Of a stretch of 64,000 nt of DNA, positions 3,253-56,332 are shown piece by piece (position 1 is the stretch's first letter; each line of letters opens with the position of its first letter). A program made the position numbers and the translations under genes. The DNA is from Favolaschia claudopus (taxonomy: Eukaryota > Basidiomycota > Agaricomycetes > Agaricales > Mycenaceae). The DNA lies in NCBI GenBank assembly GCA_037176885.1, contig JAWWNJ010000014.1, positions 62,001-126,000 on the forward strand, written 5' to 3'. Below the pieces are notes generated by a model, which saw nothing but the letters and a program-made list of their open reading frames with translations, did no database searches and was not told the origin of the DNA.

Positions 3253-3898
3253 CTGTAGCACTTTGTATGGGTGAAACAGACCCTCGAGCGTGACTGGAAA
3301 CGCTACGCATGGAAACCAGAAACGGCCTCAGCGTTATGCGTGACATCATAGAATTTTGGAAACGGGCGGGCAAACACCGATAAAATCTATTTCCAAACGT
3401 TGAACGGATTCTGGGCAATTTTTAGCTCTCGTTTATGCTTTCTTTGTATCCATAGCCCTTGGAGATCGCATTTCTCCTGTTACGGGCTCCGTAATACTTA
3501 CACCTTTTTTCTTTTTCATGAACACTGCGCCGTGGCGCACGCTCAGACACCTAAACCAGCGACGGGTCCACCACAAGCCCTCTTCGAGCGACTAGTTAAA
3601 CTACCTCGGCCAGCTTTCGGTACACCTTCCCAGCACCTTGCCCGTGGTCTCCGATGCACCGTACCGGTTCTATCTTGACGAAGATTGTAGAGAGTGATTG
3701 AGTGCAGTGAGGAGGAGGAGGGTTATAGCTAAGTTATAGCAGTAGATTCAGCTAGATTTTACAGCCACAAACATGATAATTCGACATCTTTGTATGTCAC
3801 GCAGTCCTCAGGGAAACCACCCGACCGTTATGCGTTACCGTTGAAACGAAACAGGGCGGGCGTTACGCGTTACGTTTCACCCATACAAAGTGCTACAG
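3253..3898. mobile_element. TA-flanked MITE, family C, 646 bp (uninterrupted copy)
   Basis: Perfect 25-bp inverted ends CTGTAGCACTTTGTATGGGT..., TA duplications at 3251-3252 and 3899-3900. A near-identical copy at 43218-44303 contains a hAT insertion; subtracting that insertion and its duplication leaves exactly 646 bp. The copy here is therefore the empty site for that insertion. The 92-codon frame inside (3400-3678) has no recognisable domain. Confidence 0.9.
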
Positions 3899-24549: not shown

Positions 24550-24659
24550 GGGATCGCTGGTCGGCCATGGAAGGCATATTCAGTCAATTTCTTTATAAGA
24601 ACAGACTCTCAAGGTGTCATTCAAGAGCAGAGTTGCTTAGAATATTTGCTTCAACTTTG
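24550..24659. repeat. 110-bp dispersed repeat, copy 2
   Basis: Matches 21223-21332 over its full length. Here it abuts the end of the truncated tyrosine-recombinase frame. Confidence 0.75.
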
Positions 24660-24826
24660 CGCTCGAGGGACGAAAAGATGATCCAATTCGAGTCGAAGAT
24701 GTGCGGACTTTAGGGTGGGAGGACATGGTGTTGTCAAAGTTGCAGTCGAGGAAAGAGTCGGACGTCTGAGGTACGGATTCAAATGGGAAGGAGAAATTGA
24801 TGATATTGAAAGGACGAGACGACCAA

Positions 24827-25665
24827 CAAGCTGCACCAAATGGGGAGGAGAGGTCGAGGGACCGACGGAGAGCTCGTAAATGGTCCTTGGTGACAGGGCC
24901 GCGGGGGTGTCGTTTGAAGGAAACACCAGCGCGATCAGCGGCTTTCTTGAGCGACGGTAGCCAACCTTCATCCCCGTGCCACGCAGCGTCGTTGAAGTGG
25001 TGCCAGAGACGAAGGCCGTTGAGCCAGTTACGTACACATTTGCCAGAGCAGGTGCCGAGGGCTTCCGCTACGAATGCTGCCAGGAGAACGCGGTCTGCGG
25101 GCATGCGCGCGTTCTCGGGGATCTGTTCTGGGTCACAAAATTGGTGAAAGCGAAGTAGTCCGGCGCCGTAGGACTCTCTCGTCTCCGAAGTCGTAGCGCG
25201 AAGTACGCCTTCAAAAATCGAGATGCTCGAGGCGAGCAGGCGTTGGTGGGCGGCGAGAGAGTGTGGTGCGGTCCAGAGTAAGACGCGGCGGTCGGCCGGG
25301 ACGTGGGGGCGAAGGGGGCTGGCAGCCAGGACATTGGCGGGGGTAGGACGACGGGCGTGTTTGGGGGGAAGGGTTCTGGCCGCCACACGACGCACATCGA
25401 GCATGGCGGAGGCCGGGTCGATGGCCGGGAGCGTCGACGACATGCGGGTGTCGAAGGGGGCTGGGTGGGGAGGTGAGGGGGGTCGGAACGTGATCCAGTC
25501 GAGCAGAGAGATGGAAAAGTGTCTGCGGGATGTCAGAGGGTTCAAGGGCGACGCAACGAAAGCCAGACCTCGAGTCATCGAGAGATTCGTGGGTCGGGAC
25601 GGACGTGTCTGTAACGAGAGAGAACGGGGGGCTGCGGCGGCGTCAAGCCGAGGATCGCATGCCAA
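24827..25665 (-). pseudogene. Tyrosine recombinase, N-terminal part (DIRS/Ngaro-like element 1)
   Basis: The minus-strand frame from 25665 encodes a basic, Pro-rich leader. It then has the helical core-binding domain of a retroelement tyrosine recombinase (ESYGAGLLRFHQFC, GKCVRNWLNGLRLWHHFNDA, GPVTKDHLRALRRSLDLSSP). Such enzymes integrate circular cDNA by strand exchange through a catalytic tyrosine. Family similarity stops near 24827, before the R-HxR-Y catalytic half; the remaining open frame to 24637 is unrelated. It lies downstream of the reverse transcriptase/RNase H part of the same element, the order expected for DIRS and Ngaro elements. Not functional. Confidence 0.7.
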
Positions 25666-25696
25666 AGGAAATCACTTACCTTGGCACGGAGCGAGC

Positions 25697-26077
25697 TAGG
25701 CTCGAATCCAGCCTGTGTATGAGGGCGAACCCGTCGATACACAGGCTGGTCGATCTGAGTTTGAATTGCCTTGTCAATCGGATTACCAAAAAAGGTTATT
25801 CACTTATTCACCCATTATCGACTCAAATGGCGAGATTTTTTGAGGTAGCTGAACGGTTTGTACGCCAAGGTCATTCGGCGCTTATTTGAAGGTCTAATCG
25901 TAAGTTTTCACAGTGCAGGAGCAAGAATGGTCAGTGTTGTGCTTGTTTGTTCGTGACGTCACCCACTGTAAGCAATAACCTTTTTTGGTAATCGAGATTG
26001 ACGTGGCATTTCAAACTCAGATCGACCGGTCTGTCTATCGACAGGCTTGCCTCCACAGACAGACGGTCACCGGTCTA
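25697..26077. mobile_element. Mutator-type MITE, 381 bp, 9-bp TSD
   Basis: Inverted ends TAGGCTCGAATCCAGCCTGT / inverse of TAGACCGGTGACCGTCTGTC, flanked by the exact 9-bp duplication GGAGCGAGC (25688-25696, 26078-26086). Ends match the element at 22567. It sits between the recombinase and RNase H genes of tyrosine-recombinase element 1. Confidence 0.9.
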
Positions 26078-26273
26078 GGAGCGAGCTAAGGCGAGCGGGG
26101 GAGGTGCGGGAGGGGTGGTCTGATGAAGGGCAGGAGGGCTGAGGGATGGTTAGACGAGAAGAGAGGGTGCGCCCAGGCACGTACGAATCGACGAGCGCGA
26201 GTTTAGAAAGAGAGAAAAAAGAGCGGCTTGACGAGGAGCGTGGCGGCGACGGTGACGGCGACATGGTGAGTCA

Positions 26274-27420
26274 TCAGTCGCCCGCCACGAAGATGTCCTC
26301 GAGGTCGGAGGGTAGTTCGAACTCTCGATGAAGGCGGTTGTGGATGGGAAAGGGAGAGAGACCGCGTGAAGGTGCGTCGGCGACGTTGGAGGCTGTGTTG
26401 ACGTACGTCAGTTTCGGCACGATCATCCGATTGGCCGCAACAGCGTAAGCCCGACGAGCGCAGAGATTCAGCTCGACGTTGGGGCTGCGGTGTTTGGTGA
26501 GGGCGCCAATTGCAGCTTTGTTGTCAGAGTGGATGAGGAGGTGAGTGTTGTTGTAGCCGAGTTGCCCCAGGAAGAGGTATAGGAGTTCCAGAGCCACGGC
26601 TTCCAGCCAGCAGATGTCACGGCCGGGTGTCTTCCAATCATCTGCAAGGCGGAACGAGTACCACCTCTCGCCAATGACGATGCCCAAACCCCAGGAGGTG
26701 GAGGCATCAACATGAATTCGGAGGTCGAGGAGGGGACCAAGGGGGACGGAGTTGGCGGAAGGATGAGGGATCCTCGAGCTTGTGGCGCCACCAAACGAGT
26801 GTGGAAACGGCGCTGTTGGATAGGAAGCGGCGAGCGGCGGTGTTCCCCTTGTAATGGCACATGAGGTTGGAGAAAACTGGGAGACGCGAGCTGCCCTCCT
26901 CGAAGATGAAAGTGATGTGACAAAGCGTTCCGTGAACGCGTTGCAAATCACGTAGAGTGAACTGCTGGCTCGCGCGAGCCTTGTAGATCATCTCCGAGAT
27001 GCGCGCCAGGTATTTCAACCGCTTAGGTTCTGGGAGCGAGACGCGGCGGTGCTGTAGATCCCAGGGGAGGCCGAGGAAAACCATTGAGTCTTCAAAATGG
27101 CTGCCAGACTTCTTCGGATGCCAAGGAACGTTTATGGGGTCGATAGGCGCCATGCAGGAGCTGCGGTCGTAGCGGTATAGAAAAGGGCCGTCGGTGAAGG
27201 GACCCGTCGAGTTTGGGTAGCGGAGTTTGAGCCAGTCGTCTTCGTGGGAGAAGGTGTCGGTGTCGTTAGTGGTTTCTGCGCGCCAGATGTCGACTGTAGC
27301 ATAACCGATTTGGCCGGCGTTGCTGCTAGCTGAAGCGGCGCCAAAAGGATGGCAGTGATCAAGGTAAAAGCCGTTGTCAAGGGAGACAACGAGGAAGGGC
27401 TTGTGGTCAGGGAGGCACAT
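26274..27420 (-). pseudogene. Reverse transcriptase C-half and RNase H (DIRS/Ngaro-like element 1)
   Basis: Minus-strand frames encode the late palm and thumb of a reverse transcriptase (YLDHCHPFGAASASSNAGQI, HEDDWLKLRYPNSTG, MVFLGLPWDLQHRRVSLPEP). RNase H follows (IHVDASTSWGLGIVIGERWY, LLIHSDNKAAIGAL, NVADAPSRGL). The two parts are out of frame: one extra C in the run near 26750 accounts for the shift. The canonical YxDD box reads HEDD. Sequence similarity ends abruptly at about 27420, where element 2 starts in the opposite direction, so the first half of the reverse transcriptase and any gag are missing. Confidence 0.8.
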
Positions 27421-28075
27421 CGACGCCATTGTAAATGGCACCTTCGAAGCCGACGACCTCCCCAAGCTCTCCTCCATCGCCGCTGGCCCCGCTGCCCCCG
27501 TGCCCATCCTCTTCCACCAGACTTCTGGTGTTGCCGCCCCGGAACAACCAGAGGAAGCCCTCGATGCGGGTGTTCCCCGCGCATGGGTCAAGGCATTCCC
27601 CTCCTTACCCCCGCTCCTTGATGCCTGGTCGACCTACACCGGCATCCGCTCCCTCATTGACACCACCAATGGCGGTGTTGCTGCCGCCCTTTCCATCTAC
27701 ACCAGCCAGCTCATGGACTTCACCACACAGTATGAGTGGTCCGCAGTCTTGCGTTACCACTACGAATTTATTCGTGTGCGCATGGCTGAGAATTTTCTCC
27801 CCACGCGCTGGGTGACGCCCGATCAGGGCCTCGTCTCCACCAGGTTGGTTCGCTACCCACTGCCCCCACCATTCTCCTCCAAGCGCAAACGCGACCTGGC
27901 TGAGCGCCTTTCTGAACCCAGCGCCCCTGCATCCCGTCCCAAGGTTGATGAGACCTGCTACAAGTTTCAGGATGCCGCTGGTTGTCGCATGGGCGACAAG
28001 TGCTCTCGCCGCCACGTCTGCATTGCGTGTCAGGGCGCCCACCCCGCACATGCTTGCCCTCAGAAGCGGAAGTAG
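27374..28075 (+). CDS. Gag-like protein of DIRS/Ngaro-like element 2
   Basis: An open frame of 233 codons. The first 15 or so codons lie in the opposite element across the junction, so the original start is probably lost. The middle has the helical pattern of a capsid-like Gag (YTSQLMDFTTQYEWSAVLRY, HYEFIRVRMAENFLPTRWV). The C-terminus has a cysteine/histidine cluster, CYKFQDAAGCRMGDKCSRRH followed by CIACQGAHPAHAC, resembling a CCCH finger plus knuckle that would bind RNA. It is followed by the pol region after about 110 bp. Confidence 0.65.
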   Translation: MSRETTRKGLWSGRHIDAIVNGTFEADDLPKLSSIAAGPAAPVPILFHQTSGVAAPEQPEEALDAGVPRAWVKAFPSLPPLLDAWSTYTGIRSLIDTTNGGVAAALSIYTSQLMDFTTQYEWSAVLRYHYEFIRVRMAENFLPTRWVTPDQGLVSTRLVRYPLPPPFSSKRKRDLAERLSEPSAPASRPKVDETCYKFQDAAGCRMGDKCSRRHVCIACQGAHPAHACPQKRK

Positions 28076-28183
28076 GATGTTTGGGGCACGCCGACCGAGT
28101 CCGGCCTCTGCCCCACTCCGACCAACCCTTCGATTCCTCTTCGTCCACTGGCTCCTCGCACCCCACCCTCTCTATCACCCCTC

Positions 28184-29018
28184 TTGCATACAGCTCATCT
28201 CTCTGCCCATCTAATGCCTCCTCCCGCTGCCCGTCCTAATACACACATCACATTCCCAGTTGCCCCTACCTCCGGTCCTCATGTTACTAGCTCCCTTAAT
28301 CCCGCTATGCTATCTTTCTTACTTCAGGATTATCCTGATCCCTCCTTCGTACAACACCTACATAATATCTGTACCTATGGTACGTCAATTGGATACACCG
28401 GCCCCCGGGTGGGCCGCGCCTTCTCACGAAATCTGGGTGAGCTTCGCCGTGTCGACTCCCTCCCCGTTCATGAGCAGCGCCGGGTCGTTTACTCACCTGT
28501 GGGCACTGTCCCCAAAGCCGATGGTGGTTGGCGCACTGTCCACCACCTCTCTTATCCTCGTGGCTCGTCTATCAACGATAGCATTTCCTCTGACGCAGTG
28601 ACACTCTCCTACACCTCGCTTGACACCTTCTTTGACCGCCTCCGCCGACTTGGTCCTGGTGCTCTCCTCTGGAAGATCGACCTGCGGCGTGCGTTTCGCC
28701 ACATCGTAGTATGCCCAGACGACTCTCTGCTGTATGGCTTCTACTTCGACGGTGTTGGTTACATTGACGTTCGCCTACCATTCGGATCCCGCTCATCACC
28801 CCCCACTTTCAACTTGTTTGCGGAGGCCCTGCACTAGATCTCGGAGCGTATGGGCGCCCCCCTTGACCATTTCCTCGACGACTTCTTTGGTGCTCGCGCA
28901 GCAGGCGAGTATGACCTTGCAGAGCGCGACCGTGCAATTTTCCGCGCAATCTGCGACGCAACTGGTTTCTCTGCCTATCCAGTTGGGAAGGCAGGGAAGG
29001 ACATAGCTGCAGCGCACC
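28184..29018 (+). pseudogene. Reverse transcriptase, DIRS/Ngaro-like element 2
   Basis: Fingers and palm are recognisable: VVYSPVGTVPKADGGWRTVH, LLWKIDLRRAFRHIVVCPDD, VRLPFGSRSSPPTFNLFAEA and the catalytic FLDDFF box. The frame is cut by TAG at 28836-28838, where related enzymes have Trp (a TGG to TAG change would explain it). After about 28985 a stretch of the thumb is missing and the frame changes into the next segment at about 29019. Confidence 0.8.
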
Positions 29019-29720
29019 ATGGCTACTCTCAAGTCCCTTCTAGCCGGAGCGTCAGCTACCCTCTTGGACCTCCAATCCATTGCTGGCCTTCTGCAGTTTG
29101 CAACAAAGGTCCTGCCTGCGGGGCGCGCTTTCATCCGTCGTGTGTACGATGCGCTGTCCCATTTCCCATCCTTTGGCCGGCGTCGCATCCCGAGAGGTGC
29201 ACGCCGTGATCTGGAATGGTGGGCTCGTCTTCTTCCGACTTGGAACGGTATCCAGTCCCTACATCCTCACTGCCCGGGCGTGGTTATCTTTACTGACGCC
29301 AGTGCGTCTTCCTCGAAAGGAATTGGCGGTCATCTTGGGCCCCGGGAGGCACCTATCGATTTTTTTGCGATGCGAGTACCCAGGCGGCACCGGGGAAAGT
29401 GTATCCTTTTCAAGGAGCTGTGGGCCGTGCTCCACGCTCTTCGTATCTGGGCATCTCCAGCCTGGGCCGGGTCCCGGGTCTTACTTCGGGTTGACAACAC
29501 CGGCAGCGTGGCTGGTTTGAATGGAGGTTCTATTCGGGAGGTGCCTGCACAGGCGCTCTTGAGGGAGATCTTCCTTCTTGCGCTATCTTTTGGCTTTTCC
29601 ATCTCCTGCGTGTGGGTTTCCTCTGAACAGAACTACCTTGCTGACGCACTCTCTCGTTTTGACATGCCACGTCTTCGCCCATTGTTACCTCAATTCTTCG
29701 CCTCACAGCACACTCCCTTC
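29019..29720 (+). pseudogene. Reverse transcriptase connection and RNase H, element 2
   Basis: The open frame begins MATLKSLLAGASATLLDLQS (thumb and connection) and continues into RNase H with VVIFTDASASSSKGIGGHLG, CILFKELWAVLHALRIW, LLRVDNTGSVAGLNGGS and NYLADALSRF. Acidic catalytic residues (D in TDAS, E in KEL, D in VDNT, D in ADAL) are present. It belongs to the same element as the frames on either side. Confidence 0.8.
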
Positions 29721-30065
29721 CCCCACCTCCCGCCGGATGGCCTGAACGGGTCGATCAACCACCGCTCGTCGCCTACTTCCTCTGGCACGGCCTCGCTGCC
29801 TCCACCCGGGGCGTCAACCAGACGGCTTGCAACTCCTTCGAGTCTTTCTGCATGCGGAAATACGGCGCCAATGGCGCCTCTCCATACCCCGCCTCAGAAG
29901 CCCGCCTTCTGGAATGGGCGGCATCGCTCCCCCCGGGCTGCAGTGCGAAAACAATCAAGTGCTACATTGGTGCCCTCAAGTCCTTCCACATCGACCTCGG
30001 ATACGAATCCCGCCCTTTCGAATCACGCGTTCTCGAGCGTGTGATTCGTGGTATACGCCGGGTGT
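29720..30065 (+). pseudogene. Tyrosine recombinase N-terminal fragment, element 2
   Basis: In the frame that becomes open at 29852 the protein reads TRGVNQTACNSFESFCMRKY, then PASEARLLEWAASLPPGCSA, KTIKCYIGALKSFHIDLGY and ERVIRGIRRV, the core-binding domain of a retroelement tyrosine recombinase. It overlaps the RNase H frame and breaks off at about 30065, leaving no catalytic domain. A 108-bp direct repeat starts 100 bp further on. Confidence 0.7.
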
Positions 30066-35706: not shown

Positions 35707-36025
35707 TTACCTTGCTTGACAAGGTCTCTCCAACCTCATAATTAGCTAAGCAGCACATCGGATGTAACCCATTGATCCCCGGTTCTCCCCGATGCACAGC
35801 TTTTCGATCGTCCAAAATCACAATTCCATCGGCTCTAAGCCTCTAAATCCGAAGACGACGAAAACACAGACAAACTTGAGCTCGTTGCATCGAGTACTTT
35901 CAGCAAGACTTTCAGAGCACTACTCAGAACTGGAGGCCCGCCTCAAGCGTATCAAAGCATCGTCGGAGAGCTCAAAGCAAGATTCCTCCGCAAAGCACAA
36001 ACCCGGGCAGCAGCAAACTAAGTAA
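35707..36025 (+). pseudogene. Gene fragment shared with 20850-21190
   Basis: The plus-strand frame 35791-36025 (MHSFSIVQNHNSIGSKPLNP..., ending in a Lys/Ser-rich tail) is homologous at DNA level to the minus strand of 20850-21190. The shared order of words suggests a common gene or element end. Family not recognised. Confidence 0.4.
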
Positions 36026-37415
36026 CCATCTGCGTCAAGTACAGTACTCAGAGAATCAGGGCTTGCCATCCTCATCCTGGTGTCTATCGGGCCTGGAACT
36101 CGTGAACCGAATGCTGGGGTTTCATTATACCTCTATATCTGGTCTCTTTAAGTACTGGGCTATCAGCTTGACATTCAGAGGCGTCATCAAAGGTCATCAA
36201 ATTTCGTGGCTCTTCGTAGGTTCCTACTCATTCAATGCCCTCGATCTTCGCAGCTAGACACGGCTTTCAGAACTCATTGTCTCCTTTGTTATGCACAAAC
36301 TCTTTAAAAATGCAGGATTGGACCAGATCGGGACAATTTCTGGCGACGACGCGCACGCGACACATGGCGCAGGTCGCTGTCAACTGAGCCACTGAAAGTC
36401 TCCCCCGCGACTGCCTCACCTCAGCGGCTTTGCGCAATGCTCGTGCTGGTCGAGCAGGACCTGTACTGTATTGTCACACGCAATCGCCGACGCCGCCTTC
36501 GCACTAAAACTCAAAGTCTTTACACCAACGAAGGTTCAGCATACTGTGCTGAGCCCTCGTGCGCGATCATAGCTGTACCCAACCCAAACCAAACCCATTG
36601 TCACGGGAATCCTGTCCGCGTTCTCGACCTCTTATCCCCCGAAGGAGTGTCAGGAAAACCTGTGGATAAATGATCCGGGGACACCGCAACGAAGAATGGT
36701 GGGTCTATCAACAACCCAAACTTCCGCGGCAATTGCTTCAAAGGCTGCCTTACCATATTAATCCCCACACAGGACCGCAAAATTTATTCTTCACAGCCAA
36801 TGACCAGTTCTCTTGGGAGATTTGGCCTGCCCTCGGGCATCTTCAAGCGCTCGCAAATCGAAAACCAGATTCAGAGCGAGTATCTTCCGCGTCTATTTGT
36901 CCTTGGTTGCCTGTCTTGTGTTGTCTCACAGACTCCAGCTCCCTCTCTTCAAGTTGTCGTTGTCGCCACCGTTCTCTGGCTTTGCTCCCCTTCCCCTCCC
37001 CTTGCCGATTGAAATCGTGGCTTGCTCTCCCTTGCGCCAAGACGGATGTAAGGTGTATCGGGACATGTCGTGAGCGTCGGTATGTCCAGGAAACCACAGG
37101 ATTCGGCTAAGTCTGTTTGCGGAGGCATACATCTGTGTGGGATTGCGGAATTCATTACTGTGCGCGCCACAGACCCTCAACTTGCGCCGTGCATCCTTTG
37201 GGCCCCTTTGCATCACCATGATTTTGCTACGACTCATTTCACTTAGTTGAGCACGCTGAGTCGCGATGCACAGTTCTGATTTTGTAGTCTCTCGCTCACA
37301 CCATCATTCTCACCAAACTTTTTGTAAATTGTTAAAACTTAAATAATGTCTGCCAAAAACCGACAACAATGTGAGCGCAACAGAACTGACCATTCCATTT
37401 GTAAATCTGTCCAGT
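36026..37415. other. Anonymous region, possible decayed exons
   Basis: Short frames such as 36437-36673 and 36813-37073 overlap but none has a start, splice context or domain I can support. Confidence 0.4.
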
Positions 37416-37462
37416 ATCAATCCTTCCAGCAAGCAAGGTGCCTTCCGACGTAGTCGGAGCTT
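37416..37462. repeat. Dispersed hairpin repeat, copy 2
   Basis: Inverse copy of 11960-12006 (GCAAGCAAGGTGCCTTCCGA...), containing CTTCCGACGTAGTCGGAG. It runs directly into CCTTAA-rich repeat DNA. Confidence 0.65.
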
Positions 37463-37545
37463 CCTAGTAAGCCTTAACCTTAATAAGGCCTTATGCCTTA
37501 GGGCGAACACTGACGCAAACTAGGGCTCATGAACTAGGGCTCATG

Positions 37546-48845: not shown

Positions 48846-50362
48846 TTAGAAGTGTTCAAGAACTTCCGTGCTCTCCAACAGAGCATCGTGATCATCGTTC
48901 AGCGCGAAATCAACCGCGTGGGATGCAAAACCAGGAGGCCCTCCTTTCGAAACCATCGTGTTGAGTTCAGGACAGTTACGAGAAAGGTGACCCTGTACAC
49001 CACAGTTAAAGCATAAACCAGCGGCAAGGTATTCATTTTGTTTCTTAACCGAAAGATGCTTGCCGCTGCCGCGAGATTTCGACCCAGTCGTTGAAGGTTC
49101 GGGTTCAGCACTGGAAACCGAGATAACGCGCCCTCCATTACGACGTTTCCCGTTCGAATCTGAGTCCAGTTTCTGGTCATCGGGCTTGGATTGAGTCTTA
49201 CTCGATCCAGCCATATCAATCTCATCATTATCATCGTCAACCTTGACAATAATTTCGGCGCTCTCAGCACCAGCAGTAACTTCAGCCCAAGAAGAGGTTT
49301 CTGGATCAAGTTTATCGCGAAACATTTCCTTTCGAATGTCAGCGTTGAGGCTACGCCAGAACATGACAACCTTCTCTTGGTTGGCTTCAAGACCAATGGT
49401 GTTATAAATTCGTTCCCATTCAGCCTTGTGAATTAACACTGACTTAGTGCCTTGGACACAAGAGCGCAATCGAGTGCGTTGTTTCTCAAATAGTACGACA
49501 AGTAAAACACTCGTTGATCAGTCGGGACTTTGCCAAGTTGCACATAATTCGATCCTTCTTTAACAAATCGATGGAATGCAATGGCATCCGGTGAGCCATC
49601 ATACTCCTTTGGAGGTATAGGCTTCAATATCATTTTATTCTTTCTGTGAGAACTCCGTTTCTTCCTAGAGGAACGGCGCTTGCGACGATGACGTGACGGG
49701 TATGACTTCCCGGAACCTGAACCATCTGAGGACTCAGAGTCGGAGTTCGACGAATCAGAAGGTTCGGATGGGGTGGGTGAACCATCCACACGCTCGGCAT
49801 TGTGCAGGGTGCGCTCAATGAAGCTGCCTGGCGCGACGCGCTTAGCAGGAGTGGGCTCGGGACGGGATCCGCGAGCTCCGTGATCCGCACCGATCTGTCT
49901 ATCAATGCTGTTTTTAACAGCAGTCTGCGCCTTGGTTAAGTCAACCTTTGGCGTCGTCGTCCGAGAACGTTGCAAGCTGCTGATCTGCGCTTGTAAATCA
50001 GCAATCTTTTCGTCTATGCTCTGGCCAGAGGCGACGGTATCTTTCGTTTGCTTTAGCAAAGGTCTCGGAGTTCGGGGTTCGGGAGAAGCCATGATTGGCG
50101 TCCGATCAAAGAACCCAGGTGGCGGTGAATGCTGTTCTTCTTTGACAGCACGGCGAATTTCGGCGAAATTATCAAAAGCGGCTCTTTGCGCGTCGATATC
50201 GCGCTCAGAGAAATCTTCCGAAAAATTTGCTGCACCCCAATTGCGGGGGTCAGCACCTTTGCCCTTCTGGCGGGAGGTTCCTACACCAGATGGTATTGCC
50301 GGACTGACAATATTTTCAGGCACATTCATTGCCGATCTTTCATCAATATCAATCAAGTTCGT
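48846..50362 (-). pseudogene. gag: Gag of Gypsy-A copy 2, deleted and frameshifted
   Basis: The minus-strand N-terminal part (50356-49433) matches copy 1 from about its residue 210 on. It contains the DPRNWGAANFSEDFSERDID motif, the basic Ser-rich linker and the capsid block (KGSNYVQLGKVP-like). Near 49480 about 36 codons are missing and the frame changes. The rest (49469-48846) encodes the late capsid and a CCHC zinc knuckle, CFNCGVQGHLSRNC. All of pol is gone: gag is followed within 200 bp by the polypurine tract and 3' LTR. The 5' part ends at 50362, where an inverted Gypsy-B gag fragment begins. Confidence 0.85.
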
Positions 50363-50655
50363 GATTTAGCGAAATCTCTCGAGGCGAAGGACCTTCTCAG
50401 CCGAAGGGTAAAGGACCGGATCCTCGCAATTGGGGCGAGGTTGATTGGTCGGACCAGTTCTCTGAAGCTGAGTTTGAAGCTCAACGCGCCGCGTTCGCTA
50501 ATTTTGAAGAAATCAATCGAATTAAAAAGGAGCCTATTTCTACTCCTTCTGACTTATTCCGGGATGGGACCGTGAATAATGTACCATCGGATAGTTCTTC
50601 TACTACCGTTGTAATTAATAAACCTGAATATAATTCTCCCCCGAATGAATCAGTG
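50363..50655 (+). pseudogene. gag: Gypsy-B gag, 5' fragment before the Harbinger insertion
   Basis: Reading in the frame with a codon at 50419, the sequence runs GPSQPKGKGPDPRNWGEVDW, then SDQFSEAEFEAQRAAFANFE and a Ser/Thr-rich stretch to NESV at the insertion site. It matches Gypsy-A Gag (QKGKGADPRNWG, SERDIDAQRAAFDNFAEI). The frame resumes at 54782 (SGQTIISLSDEKLNLQKRLK), corresponding to VASGQSIDEKIADLQ in Gypsy-A. Confidence 0.85.
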
Positions 50656-51324
50656 GGTGACTTCCCATAGTGGTAAATAAATGTTTTGGAATATCTGGGA
50701 ATATCCGGAGGAGGGACCCCATCGGGCTCAGATCTCAAATTTCGTGTTATTATCCCGTTGTAAAGCTCTTTAAAGCTTAAATCTGAACGAGGGGTCTTGA
50801 CCCCCCGTTCAAATTTAACACCCTCGAATAAACAACGAATAAACGGATTTGTCGAGCTTGCGCCCCATTGGGCGCTGCGTCACGTATGTCACACCAAGCT
50901 CTCCTCACCTCGCTCTCATGTTCTTCGCGACCGGTCCTCGGTGCGCTCATCGTTGCGCTCATTATCTCGGCGTCCTTGTGTGTCGGAGGACTCTACCCTG
51001 GATTTCCTGTGCCAGCGCAGTTTTTCAATGACGAAACACCCTGCTTCGTACAATGATTTGCCTCAATCTTGGACGGAAACGCTCTGCACACCACAGATGA
51101 AAGCATACCAGGAGATACCAGGGCGACACTGGCAGCAACGACCCTCTCAAAACTCAATCTAACCCTGCGACGCTCCATTGCTCCAATGGAAATCTCTCCA
51201 CGACTCAAACAAACGCAGCAGGGTCGCACTCGTGCCGTTGACGGTCGCCAGTGCATTCAAAATTCGGACGCTCTTACCAGCTTTTGATGTCATCGAGTCT
51301 AAATTCGTGTTGTGCAGGGGACAG

Positions 51325-51330
51325 TATAAA
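51325..51330 (+). promoter_or_regulatory. TATA box of the DUF6818-like gene
   Basis: TATAAA lies 89 bp upstream of the ATG at 51419, followed by a pyrimidine-rich leader (CTTCCCTCAGCTTTCTTC), a common arrangement in basidiomycete promoters. Confidence 0.5.
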
Positions 51331-51418
51331 ATGGTGTGTTCCTTCCCTCAGCTTTCTTCGTTCGACCTCGTCGTTCATTCCGCTCTTTCAGTCTAATCTT
51401 CGCTCTCTCTCTCTAACC

Positions 51419-52987
51419 ATGTCTGATAACTCTTCCCCTCCCTTTACCCAACCCAACACCAACACCGAATACATGCATGACCCCGACGGTCAACCGTGGT
51501 ACCGCAATCCTGGTGGTCCATGGGCTCCGGTGATGATGACTCTGGGAGTACGTCTTTTACTCTGTTTTTTTTACGCACCATTGACCCATTTCAGTCTTCC
51601 GCCGCTCAGACAAACCAGCCTCTGCAGCCTGCCTTCCCGTTCAACGCAGTGTCGCAGGTACTCGATCTATCTTTCATCCTATCCCGTTGTACTTACATCT
51701 AGTATTAGCAGTCGTTCGACTTCCCTGCGGCGAACGTTGGTCCCATCGATCCCCGTCTTCAGTACTCCGCTCCAAGCAGTCTTCCTCGTCTTCCCCCACA
51801 CGAAGCCGCCGCTGCTGTCCTTGGCAAACCGGCTACCAAGATCGCTGGTGTTCGCACCAAGGAGAAGGGCAAGAAGCGCAAACGCACCCCCGACTCGGAC
51901 GACGAGAGCGACGCTGGCCCCGCAGCAAAGCGCGCTCGTCCTGCCGGTCGTCCTGCCGGAGCCCCCAACTACAATAAAGTCGACAAGAAAGCCGTTCTTC
52001 GCCACGTTGAGAAAATCTTGCCGTTGGGAAGGAAGGATTGGAAAGAGGTCGCGGTGCTGTACAACGAGTGGGCCGATGAGAACGATCGGCCTCAGCTGGA
52101 TGCAAAGTCTCTTGAGGAATGGCACAAGCGAGTGCGTATTTATCTCTTTAATTTATTTAATTCACTGCTGACGATCTAGTACTTAGCTCGTTCGCAAGAA
52201 GAAGCCCACTGGATCCGGTACCTGCCCTCCCGAAATCAAGGACGCCCATCGGATCGAGCGCTTGATCAACAGCCGCGCCGACACTCGCGAACTCTCCGAT
52301 TCTGGGTCCGACATCGTCCTCTCCTCGGACGAAGATGTCGACACCTCCGGGAAACCCGCTATCCACACTGCAGTCGCCCAACGCGCGCCTTCCCCTGCCC
52401 CTGCCCCTCGTCGCTCCCGCATCAGTGCTCCAGACCTTGTCAATCAGCTTTCCAAAGCCTTCGATCCCAAGGCTGCTCGGGCTCGTGACGCGGAACGTGC
52501 TGAGCGGTCGTCTCAGACCACGCAGATCCTCACGCTCTCCCAGCAATACCAACAAGCCCAGGCCACCATCGAGTCCCTCCGCACTCAGGTGTCGACGATG
52601 CAGTCCCACATCAACGATGTGGAACGGGCTCGGGATCGAGCTGAGTGGAAGCTTGAGATGTATCAGTCCTCCCCGCCTGTTGTCACTGCCCCACCTGTCG
52701 CCACTGCCTCTCGCAATCGTTCCGCTGTCTACAGGGAGAATCCCGACCTCATCCGTGTGGACGGCAAAGTCAGATGTGAGCGCATCTATGCCGATGGCGG
52801 TGCGACGACTCAATTCTTCTCAGACGCCAGCGACGACGAAGAGAAGGAGAATGTGGATCCAAACTTCGACTCCAGCTTCCGCATTGATGACGACCACTTC
52901 CCCATTCATTCTGCGGACTCCTCCAACTCTGATCTCCACCCGTCTGCTGTTGACTCGTCGTCGTCGTCCGTAGTCGAAGGGGCTTGA
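51419..52987 (+). CDS. DUF6818-like (Myb/SANT-like) protein, four exons, intact
   Basis: Exons 51419-51547, 51595-51657, 51709-52131 and 52187-52987 join to 471 codons plus TGA; introns of 47, 51 and 55 nt are GT-AG. The N-terminus is Pro/Gln-rich. A basic nuclear-localisation-like stretch (KEKGKKRKRTPDSDDESDAG) is followed by the core domain: AVLRHVEKILPLGRKDWKEV, AVLYNEWADENDR, KSLEEWHKRLVRKKKPTG and PPEIKDAHRIERLI. That pattern is what I know as DUF6818, a helical Myb/SANT-like fold probably binding DNA. A coiled coil (ILTLSQQYQQAQATIESLRT...) and an acidic Ser-rich tail with EEKENVDP follow. It is convergent with the transposase gene, 192 bp apart, inside the same inverted repeats. Likely role: recognition of the element ends or partner of the transposase; inferred. 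Confidence 0.85.
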
Positions 52988-53179
52988 AGATTGATGCGGT
53001 AGATTTCTGACTCAAATGTCCCTGCTTGCTATACACGCGCTATACATTGTCAACACTCCTTGCTTCTTACTTACCTTTACTTACACTCTCCTAATCGTTT
53101 GCTCTGTTACTTGTGTCACTCGTTTCCTTAGACCTCGCTACTTCAACTTGTTGTTGTGCCAATAAAAATCAACCCTCGT

Positions 53180-54615
53180 TCATTCGTAAATTGCTACATT
53201 GTGAAACCTTGCGACTCGATCTGAACGACGCTGTTCACCGAATAACATACTCTCAAATCCACTCCATACGGCTTCCTCCTCGCGAGTCTGTTTCCACAAC
53301 GGCATATAGACACTGCGGATCTGGTTGATACCCACCAACTCTGCGCGTACATTGTTCAGCCGGATACAAATTTCCAAAAGATCACCTCGCTCTTTCTGTC
53401 GGCCTATCTCCAGCGGAATGCGTAGCCGCCCAAACGAACCTTGCAAACCTCGCATGCCCCACTCCGCGGTTTGTCGATAGGAAAGCAGCTCCCTGTCGAA
53501 CGCAACTTGTTCCTCAATCTCTTCTTTCGTACCTCGGATCTTTTGTCCTGTCTTAATTGGAGCACGAATCTTTCCTTCAATCTCCTGAACGCCGCGCGGG
53601 AATGCCGTGTCCGCCACGAGATAAAATCCTTCCGGGGTCCGTGTGCGAAGCTTTTCGTAGATTGGCCGAGCTACACGCGAGTCGTGCCAGCTGCCAGGTG
53701 CATTCGTCTGAGCAGTGATGACAGTGCCTATCTCGACGAATGGAGTTGAATAATTCAGACTCAGAGCTTCAAGTGGGACGAACCTTTCGGCGAAAAAACA
53801 AGAACAAAGCTAATGAAATGCTCACAAAGCCAGCCATTGTATGTCGCATTCTCAATTCCAGGATCTGCCGATGTTTGGCACGGCAAATTGAGCCCGTCTA
53901 TACTGGCAAAGGCGCCGGTAAGGCGCGGGTGACGTTCTGTGATCAGATCATTGTACTCCTCGTATTCGTGAAGATGTTGGGGCCATTTGATCCTTGCGGC
54001 AGGCATGCCGCGAAGGGCAAAGAGGAGAAGTTCAAGTCCGAAAGTGATGTAGCGAGAAATTGTGGTGGGAATGCACGCGAATATTTGCTGGAGACTAATC
54101 TCCCGCATCGTTGAGTTCAGGTAATGCAGTACAAGACCTAGCGCGCCAGGAGCGTCAAGAGAGCGACCGGACGGTCGTGTTTTCCCCGTACTTGACGCGT
54201 CTGGGCGCCTGATTGGTGTTGTGTCCCATGCATCACCAAAACCCGCCTCAAGAATGGCGTCAAAGGTCGCGACATCAAAACCCATTGTGGTGATGTACGC
54301 GCGGTCATTCCGTGTACGGTACAGAACCTGCCAAGCAGTGGCGCCGCGCGGATTCCGTAGCAGTTGAGCGCGACAAAGATATAACCTGCTAGGGCGTCTT
54401 CGCTCCGTTCGCAGTCGGTGGGCCTCGATTGCCCCAATGGTTATTATGGCGAGTGTGGAGCCTAGAAGCTGTTGCTCGTGGTCCAATGCGTCGTCCTCCA
54501 TGTCTTCGAGCTCTTGCATGCAGAAAAACGCGTCGATGTCCATGTGTGCTGCAAGCGGGACGCGTTTGTTGAAGCCAAGAGCGTGTTGTGTGGTGTTCTT
54601 TGGTGTATCATGCAT
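53180..54615 (-). CDS. PIF/Harbinger DDE transposase (HARBI1-like), two exons, intact
   Basis: Minus-strand exons 54615-53784 and 53727-53180 join across a 56-nt GT-AG intron to 459 codons plus stop. The enzyme would cut and join DNA at the element ends using metal ions held by three acidic residues. All three are visible: D in FASIDGLNLPC, D in FYLVADTAFPRG, and E in TAEWGMRGLQGSFGRLRIPL. The family landmarks SWHDSRVARPIYEKL and ATYNGWLCEHFISFVLVFSP also fit. The N-terminal half has the usual helical region (TMGFDVATFDAILEAGFGDA). Start chosen at MHDTPKN; an upstream ATG at 54660 would add 15 residues. No stop or frameshift is present. Confidence 0.88.
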
Positions 54616-54781
54616 AAAGCCTGAGAGGAATAATATACGATGAAAACAATGTAAATTCACGGAAAAGTCTTATGGGAACGGCGGCAGATAGAATTTAAGA
54701 GCAAGTACAAGATGCCGTCATTGGTGGCACCCTAAAAATATTCCACCGAAATAAAATACCACTATGGGAAGTCAACCAGTG

Positions 54782-56332
54782 TCTGGCCAGACCATTATTT
54801 CGCTATCAGACGAGAAATTGAACCTTCAGAAACGCTTGAAGGCCATTAAACTTGAGGAGAAACGTCAGAAAGACGTTGAAATAGCGGAAGCGAAACGCAC
54901 CGCTAAGTTGCTTAAGAAAAAGCATGCTAAACAGGTTAAGAACCGCGCTAAGGAAGCGGTTGAGGCGAGCATTGAGCGGGAAATTCGCACCAAAAGTACT
55001 GGTAAAAGCGAACAGAAACGCTCGAATTCCCCTCCTGCTAGACCCCTTGTAGGCGGAACGTTTATTGACAAAGTTATTCGCGAGGCTGCCGCTCGGAATT
55101 CCTCCCCACCTTCGTCAAGCTCGAGCTCGAGTTCATCCAGCTCGAGGTCCTCGAGCTCCCGCTCAGATTCCTCCGAGGAAGATTCCTCTGACTCGGACGA
55201 CGAGTCGAGCAGCTCGGATAGTTCTTCCAGCTCTGACGAGAGTGGTACCGACTCTGGAAAGTCTGTGAAACGGAGTCATCACAAATCTCGTTCCTGTAAA
55301 CACAAGGGAAAACGTAGCCATTCTCGCAAGTCGCGGAAATCTAGTAAATTGCGACGCGCGAAAGGCTCACGTAGGATGAGATCAAAATCTCAACGGGTTT
55401 CTAAAATGAGTTTGAAGCCTATCCCACCTACCAAATACAATGGATCAGTTGATCCTTATGCATATTTCCGGTTTGTTCGTGAAAGCACAAACTACGTTAC
55501 CATGGGTAAAGTCCCTAAAGAAGATCAAATTTTCATTATCAGCTATTTTATGACCGGAACGGCTGGAGACTTTTACCAACGCAAAGTTGTTAAATATGAG
55601 AATCTTGGACTCTAACCAAGTTTTTCACCGAACTTTTGAACTACTGCTTCCCTAAAGATTTTAGGTTGAAACAGCGTACAAAATTGAACGGACTTTTCCA
55701 AGGTTCTAAATCAGTAACTGAACACATCGCTGAATACGAACAGTTACATACTATGATTGGTTTACCAGATGACCAGGAGAAAGTCACCCGTCTCTGGTTA
55801 ACCTTGCGCAAGGACATCAAGAAGGAGATGTCCCGCCAAAAGCTTGATCCTGAGGTTTCAAGTTGGGACGACGTTGTTGTTGAAGCCGAGCATGCTGAAA
55901 AATTGCTTGGTAATTATAGACCTGAGGATGATAAGCCGAAGGCCAGCGCGAGCAAACCTTCTCACTCGTCATCCAAGAACCCTAATCGTGGGCGTGGTGG
56001 TCGCTTTTTCAAGAAGCCGACAATTCAATCTTCTTCCAAACGAACCTTCGATAACCGTAAAATGTCGACTCAACGTCGTAACGAATTAATGGCCGCTGGC
56101 ATGTGCTTAAATTGCGCAGAACCAAGCCATATGGCTCGTAATTGTCCTAAATTAACGAGTATGAATTCAAACCAAAAAGGAAAACCTCCAGGTTTTGGAG
56201 CACACGCAGCGCGAATGCGTACTGCGAACGAATCAGCACTCTCAGCAACCACTGAGGTGTTGGAAACCTTACCCGTTGGGTCTGCGAGTTTCCGTATGGA
56301 AGCTGAGGAGGGCGGGAACCAGGATTTAAATA
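54782..56332 (+). pseudogene. gag: Gypsy-B gag, main part with zinc knuckle
   Basis: After the insertion the frame continues with a Lys/Arg/Glu-rich coiled coil. A serine run with acidic Ser/Asp repeats and a basic linker follow, then the capsid (KPIPPTKYNGSVDPYAYFRF, TEHIAEYEQLHTMIGL) and a CCHC knuckle, CLNCAEPSHMARNC. One base is missing near 55602, shifting frame between KYEN and TKFFTELLNYCFP. The frame then runs open into a MITE at 56333. Gag forms the particle and binds the element RNA. Confidence 0.85.

Follow-up and report, generated by a model that had tools for sequence, protein, structure and literature searches.

In this study, we analysed a 64,000-nucleotide stretch of Favolaschia claudopus contig JAWWNJ010000014.1 (hereafter the window, to which positions refer unless a contig is named), in which a gypsy-like gag is interrupted by a transposon carrying two genes, one for a protein with a DUF6818 domain (open reading frame 1, ORF1) and one for a DDE transposase (Table 1). 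Two intact, convergent genes with introns had been described in an earlier reading of the window (the original prediction); the genes are indeed convergent, with 192 bases between their stops, and both are free of internal stops, with four GT-AG introns, three in ORF1 and one in the transposase gene. The element ends GGGTGACTTCCC and GGTTGACTTCCC are equal at 20 of their outer 21 nucleotides, and a looser inverted match, with the duplication included, gives 44-nt arms that are 77% complementary, in keeping with the matching inverted ends that had been predicted.

A search of the 264.6-Mb assembly (460 contigs), in which the family copies counted are those found by DNA similarity, showed that other copies with the same ends do exist. 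Fourteen full-length rows were aligned; the window copy, L002 and L003 share their flanks and were taken as a single insertion, giving 12 independent insertions. The element measures 4123 bp and is bordered by AGT at either end, and the span of 50651 to 54781 proposed before also takes in, on each side, the duplication of 3 bp and a single base of flank.

Table 1. Coordinates of the element, the interrupted host sequence and the tandem junctions of the family
Feature	Position	Strand	Remark
Gypsy-like gag before insertion	50368..50651	+	Host sequence
Left target-site duplication AGT	50652..50654	.	ANT in 25/25 distinct insertions tabulated
Transposon, 4123 bp, assigned to the Pangu group	50655..54777	.	
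Left terminal inverted repeat GGGTGACTTCCCATAGTGGTA	50655..50675	+	
ORF1 exon 1 (DUF6818 protein)	51419..51547	+	
ORF1 exon 2	51595..51657	+	
ORF1 exon 3	51709..52131	+	Acceptor at AG kept in sister subfamilies
ORF1 exon 4	52187..52987	+	With stop; 471 aa in total
Transposase exon 2	53180..53727	-	With stop; D293 and E342
Transposase exon 1	53784..54543	-	D216; 435 aa in total
Right terminal inverted repeat GGTTGACTTCCCATAGTGGTA	54757..54777	-	Minus-strand reading
Right target-site duplication AGT	54778..54780	.	
Gypsy-like gag after insertion	54781..55615	+	Host sequence; empty paralogues in genome
End-ANT-end junctions	C211:94410-94444, C14:886418, C248:149722, C51:579883, C91:209492, C119:512934, C124:367425, C204:228043		

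Genes, ends and host sequence of the element

Both predicted protein identities held in a Pfam profile check, with DDE_Tnp_4 found in the transposase (E 4.3e-21) and DUF6818 in the ORF1 protein (E 7.6e-13), each above the curated cut-off. The predicted D, D, E triad was also recovered, since D216 and D293 are invariant and E342 is present in at least 90% of 35 relatives, and all three residues are found in the window protein. Among the best 120 of 729 transposase hits the closest match is Mycena venus P0001, with 76% identity over 95% of length, and in a structure comparison a Mycena homologue of the transposase aligned with the cores of Tn5, piggyBac and integrase. A sequence search of PDB with the transposase gave just two irrelevant matches with E near 1, and Foldseek returned no match at E <= 0.001 for the model of either the DUF6818 or the transposase homologue. 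The 29 relatives found for the DUF6818 protein (25 from Mycena, one from Roridomyces and three without organism name) are annotated as hypothetical proteins, and the predicted structure of a Mycena homologue has a Myb-like helical domain and a coiled coil.

The start of ORF1 exon 3 was placed at 51709, since only the earlier AG is conserved in the sister subfamilies. Family, homology and structure analyses of ORF1 were run with a 470-aa version, in which exon 3 is three bases shorter, or with homologues. A transposase start at the upstream ATG 54615 was rejected, as this ATG is present in 4 of the 14 rows against 14 of 14 for 54543, and using the first GT of the transposase as intron donor, a hand reading, loses the downstream frame.

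The insertion in a gypsy-like gag was confirmed by comparison with empty paralogues. With the downstream gag flank as query, 42 genome matches were obtained, three full-length ones being the filled group; among the remaining gag-flank matches, AATCAGTGTCTGG was read without the element at 10/10 fetched paralogous places, all in agreement with the element boundaries. Arithmetic on the coordinates shows that removing 4126 bases leaves both gag frames in the same phase. The excised length underlying the predicted restoration of the gag frame was thus upheld, while the preference for CAGTG over three bases did not follow from it, because both readings leave the same empty site and the frame test cannot choose between them. 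On the minus strand, another gypsy-like gag (49433-50367) meets the plus-strand gag head to head, and the upstream flank in other genome copies matches only up to ~50367.

An internal palindrome lies near the left end, at about 50777-50822 (element positions ~127-168), with reverse-strand self matches in many copies. No nine-letter word is common to both subterminal regions of the window copy, and a look for telomere-repeat sites, an idea taken from a telomere-Myb match, found CCCTAA in only 3 of the 14 rows, which are the window insertion group.

Target-site duplication and assignment to the Pangu group

Ends were sought in 32 candidate loci, and in 28 both lay within the fetched stretch (L078, L079, L082 and L083 were dropped, having no second end there); L069, L071, L072 and L073, whose flanks are identical, were counted once, which leaves 25 distinct insertions, and L007, L008, L013, L019-L025 and L028, without one or both ends, gave no test. 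An identical 3-bp ANT repeat flanks all 28 two-ended elements and hence 25/25 distinct insertions; of the window trinucleotides, 6.4% are ANT. Read on the fetched strand, the duplications are AGT (8), ATT (6), ACT (6) and AAT (5), AGT and ACT being complements; the preceding base is C or T in 20 of the 25 and the following base A or G in 18. Outside this table and by eye, the full copy and an adjoining short element in L009 read ACT-full-ACT-short-ACT, and a copy split in two on C10 has ATT at each half.

The original prediction had proposed a 5-bp CAGTG duplication, or at least a 3-bp CAG; the element would then be a canonical PIF/Harbinger or NuwaII-like one. CAGTG is compatible with the window copy alone, the single empty site fits either reading, and five equal bases are also seen in L004 (CATTG) and L077 (TAATG); these two and L001 are, however, the only such cases among the 25, and in each of them a base beside the duplication is identical with the terminal base of the element. 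CAGTG fails in the other 22 insertions, where only three bases are common, and CAG fails since all 25 are ANT; likewise, the TWA of canonical PIF/Harbinger is found in 0/25 and the NuwaI and NuwaII targets, CWG or C|TNA|G, in none, which makes this interpretation extremely improbable. The correction from five bases to ANT shows why a target site cannot be fixed from one copy.

Because the duplication is ANT and not CAGTG or CAG, the element was moved from the canonical PIF/Harbinger to the Pangu group, and very probably it is a complete two-gene Pangu-group transposon (Harbinger2 in Repbase) inserted at an ANT target in a gypsy gag, the class being taken from target, ends and ORFs. The predicted complete two-gene Harbinger-type element therefore stands, given its copies, empty sites, domains and selection, while its placement in the canonical group does not. 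Pangu was described by Han et al. (2015) as having ANT duplications, ends starting AG or GG and two ORFs (PMC4482050); it has been equated with Repbase Harbinger2 (PMC12730594) and kept as a separate clade (PMC11304231). The window element has terminal repeats that start with AG or GG and fall within 11-40 bp, a transposase of the DDE_Tnp_4 type together with a second ORF, and paralogous empty sites that agree with AGT at 10/10 fetched places, although one site alone would also fit CAGTG. It further resembles Pangu in its GG ends, its basidiomycete host and a length near the reported average of ~3487 bp (PMC4482050), and differs in that its second ORF carries DUF6818. The results section of PMC4482050 gives the second ORF of Pangu no known motif, yet its discussion lists Pangu among the groups with Myb/SANT, so that a Pangu ORF1 of Myb-like type has some precedent. 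Intact Pangu families are reported as rare, with two potentially active families among 836 genomes surveyed (PMC4482050), and the present one is a well-preserved new family of this known, little-studied group of the Harbinger superfamily.

Related systems share parts of this design. Canonical PIF/Harbinger elements such as Ping/Pong have two genes, a Myb-like ORF1 and a DDE transposase, with a 3-bp duplication and associated miniature inverted-repeat transposable elements (PMC2836001, PMC4482050), but target TWA in place of ANT. NuwaI and NuwaII likewise have two genes, one with Myb/SANT, and GG-starting ends (PMC4482050), and differ in their CWG and C|TNA|G targets. The bacterial IS5 family has the ANT target and a related transposase (PMC4482050), whereas the window element is eukaryotic, contains introns and carries a second gene whose domain is of a presumed DNA-binding type. 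By description, Ectocarpus Harbingers of the ANT type, with two tail-to-tail genes (PMC12477816), are similar, although their host is a brown alga.

Copies, selection and signs of recent movement

With exon limits projected from the window copy, both genes are open in 11 of the 14 rows, equal to 10 of the 12 independent full-length insertions; genes are broken in L009 and L010, as they also are in L003, which belongs to the window insertion. The ratio of nonsynonymous to synonymous substitution (dN/dS) in six between-subfamily pairs was 0.039-0.071 for the transposase and 0.194-0.215 for ORF1, and in six closer pairs 0.040-0.091 and 0.095-0.312, respectively; both proteins are kept by purifying selection. 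The window copy against L002 gave 0.155, and 1.592 for ORF1 (five replacement changes and one silent), with too few changes to be read.

The copies closest to the window element do not reflect new insertions. Its 100% copies (C122, C209, and C65 and C72, which are cut by contig ends) have the same upstream flank, and C122 and C209 also its downstream flank, thus they are duplicated or haplotypic DNA. A stretch ~14 kb upstream is found again at 100% on C14, C122, C209, C65, C72 and C18, and one 7 kb downstream at 100% on C14, C122 and C209 and at 99% on C59. A block comprising 36001-37500 and 49951-55581 of the window is repeated at near 100% on as many as six contigs, in several cases close to contig ends; a subtelomeric origin was rejected, with no TTAGGG/CCCTAA in six contig-end pieces (five of 400 bases, one of 60). 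C65:1 and C72:1307040 both end at nearly the same place inside the element (~element position 3600), where the assembly was probably broken within the repeat.

The window copy might thus be a silent relic, whose sequence is intact but which has ceased to be expressed or mobilised and has increased only along with duplicated or haplotypic DNA. The common flanks, the recurrence of upstream sequence at 100% on six contigs and the nearest independent relative, just 97.0% identical, all point this way; on the other hand, the copy retains both genes and both ends intact, and a near-identical pair at unrelated sites in the sister subfamily suggests that transposase may be present, so that we place this reading slightly short of even. 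That pair, L017 and L018, differs at 2 of 4062 bases, both copies lying on C59 in opposite orientation with ~23 kb between them. Their 300-base flanks have no mutual match at E 1e-5, and it is on these flanks that their independence rests, because both duplications are AGT in the element's own orientation. The pair provides good but indirect evidence of recent transposition, the best sign of it in the family, whose present-day activity is plausible from its sequences. The living element that had been predicted is accordingly kept as a plausible reading for the family rather than for the window copy in particular, which cannot be singled out as the best candidate active system while 10/12 independent insertions keep both genes open and its own near-identical copies duplicate one insertion.

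Beyond the full-length copies, a 16-base end pattern had 142 genome matches (61 forward, 81 reverse) against 0 for the reversed control, and besides the window's subfamily there are copies at ~70-76% identity among the 40 of 209 candidates that were scored. Deletion derivatives keep ~450 bases of each end, and short elements with the same ends and the ANT target measure 550-714 bases, with one of 1037; a population of deletion derivatives, nested insertions and empty sites has also been described for plant PIF/Harbinger (PMC2213677). The end-ANT-end junction pattern (<=3 mismatches) has 8 occurrences, compared with 0 for its reversed control, and identical junction letters reduce these to about five events (C211; C14 with C248; C51 with C91; C119 with C124; C204). 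L097 and L087 both show the order ATT-element-ATT-element-ATT, and the tandems would most simply be read as insertion into the family's own target duplication.

L095 (C37:1698200-1705100) belongs to a related subfamily; this copy is decayed and is enlarged by ~2.4 kb of additional DNA in its transposase half, a layout also matched on C126 and C274. A third gene was considered and rejected in this copy, since inspection by eye, with no family search run, found no convincing gene in the extra DNA, and its transposase is interrupted. Elsewhere in the window, 24637-30044 holds long open frames (24637-25671 and 26707-27633 on the minus strand, 29007-30044 on the plus strand) that by eye resemble parts of DIRS-like elements, namely recombinase and reverse-transcriptase/RNase H.

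A possible role for DUF6818

A role of the DUF6818 protein in transposition is probable, and the part of each protein may be proposed by analogy with the Ping/Pong system, in which transposition requires two proteins (PMC2836001). The DUF6818 protein would bind element DNA via its Myb-type domain, pair through the coiled coil and recruit the DDE transposase, which would cut at the GGKTGACTTCCC ends and join them to a staggered cut across ANT, mostly Y-ANT-R, to leave the 3-bp duplication. The same two proteins would presumably mobilise, in trans, the deletion derivatives and the short elements with these ends and ANT target.

It might be argued that the DUF6818 gene is a captured passenger outside the transposition machinery, as its relatives carry only the hypothetical-protein annotation and Spy elements move by transposase alone (PMC4482050). 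However, the two genes are found together inside the same ends across subfamilies at dS of ~0.5 to 1.3 with ORF1 under purifying selection, their position and orientation match those of the ANT-type Ectocarpus Harbingers, and the two-protein requirement of Ping/Pong argues in the same direction, thus capture of a passenger appears very unlikely. More specifically, and as a tentative idea that we consider rather unlikely, the DUF6818 protein could be an accessory DNA-binding protein of Pangu, a Myb-like reader with a coiled coil that steers the integration complex to existing copies, whereby some insertions would fall into the family's own ANT duplications and form tandem arrays. A limited literature search, which included the literature on Pangu and Harbinger2, found no paper on DUF6818.

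The element offers a testable role for Pfam DUF6818, which is still filed as a domain of unknown function. With many copies, short elements, two conserved genes and a sister pair, the family is also a workable candidate for yeast studies of ANT-targeted transposition.

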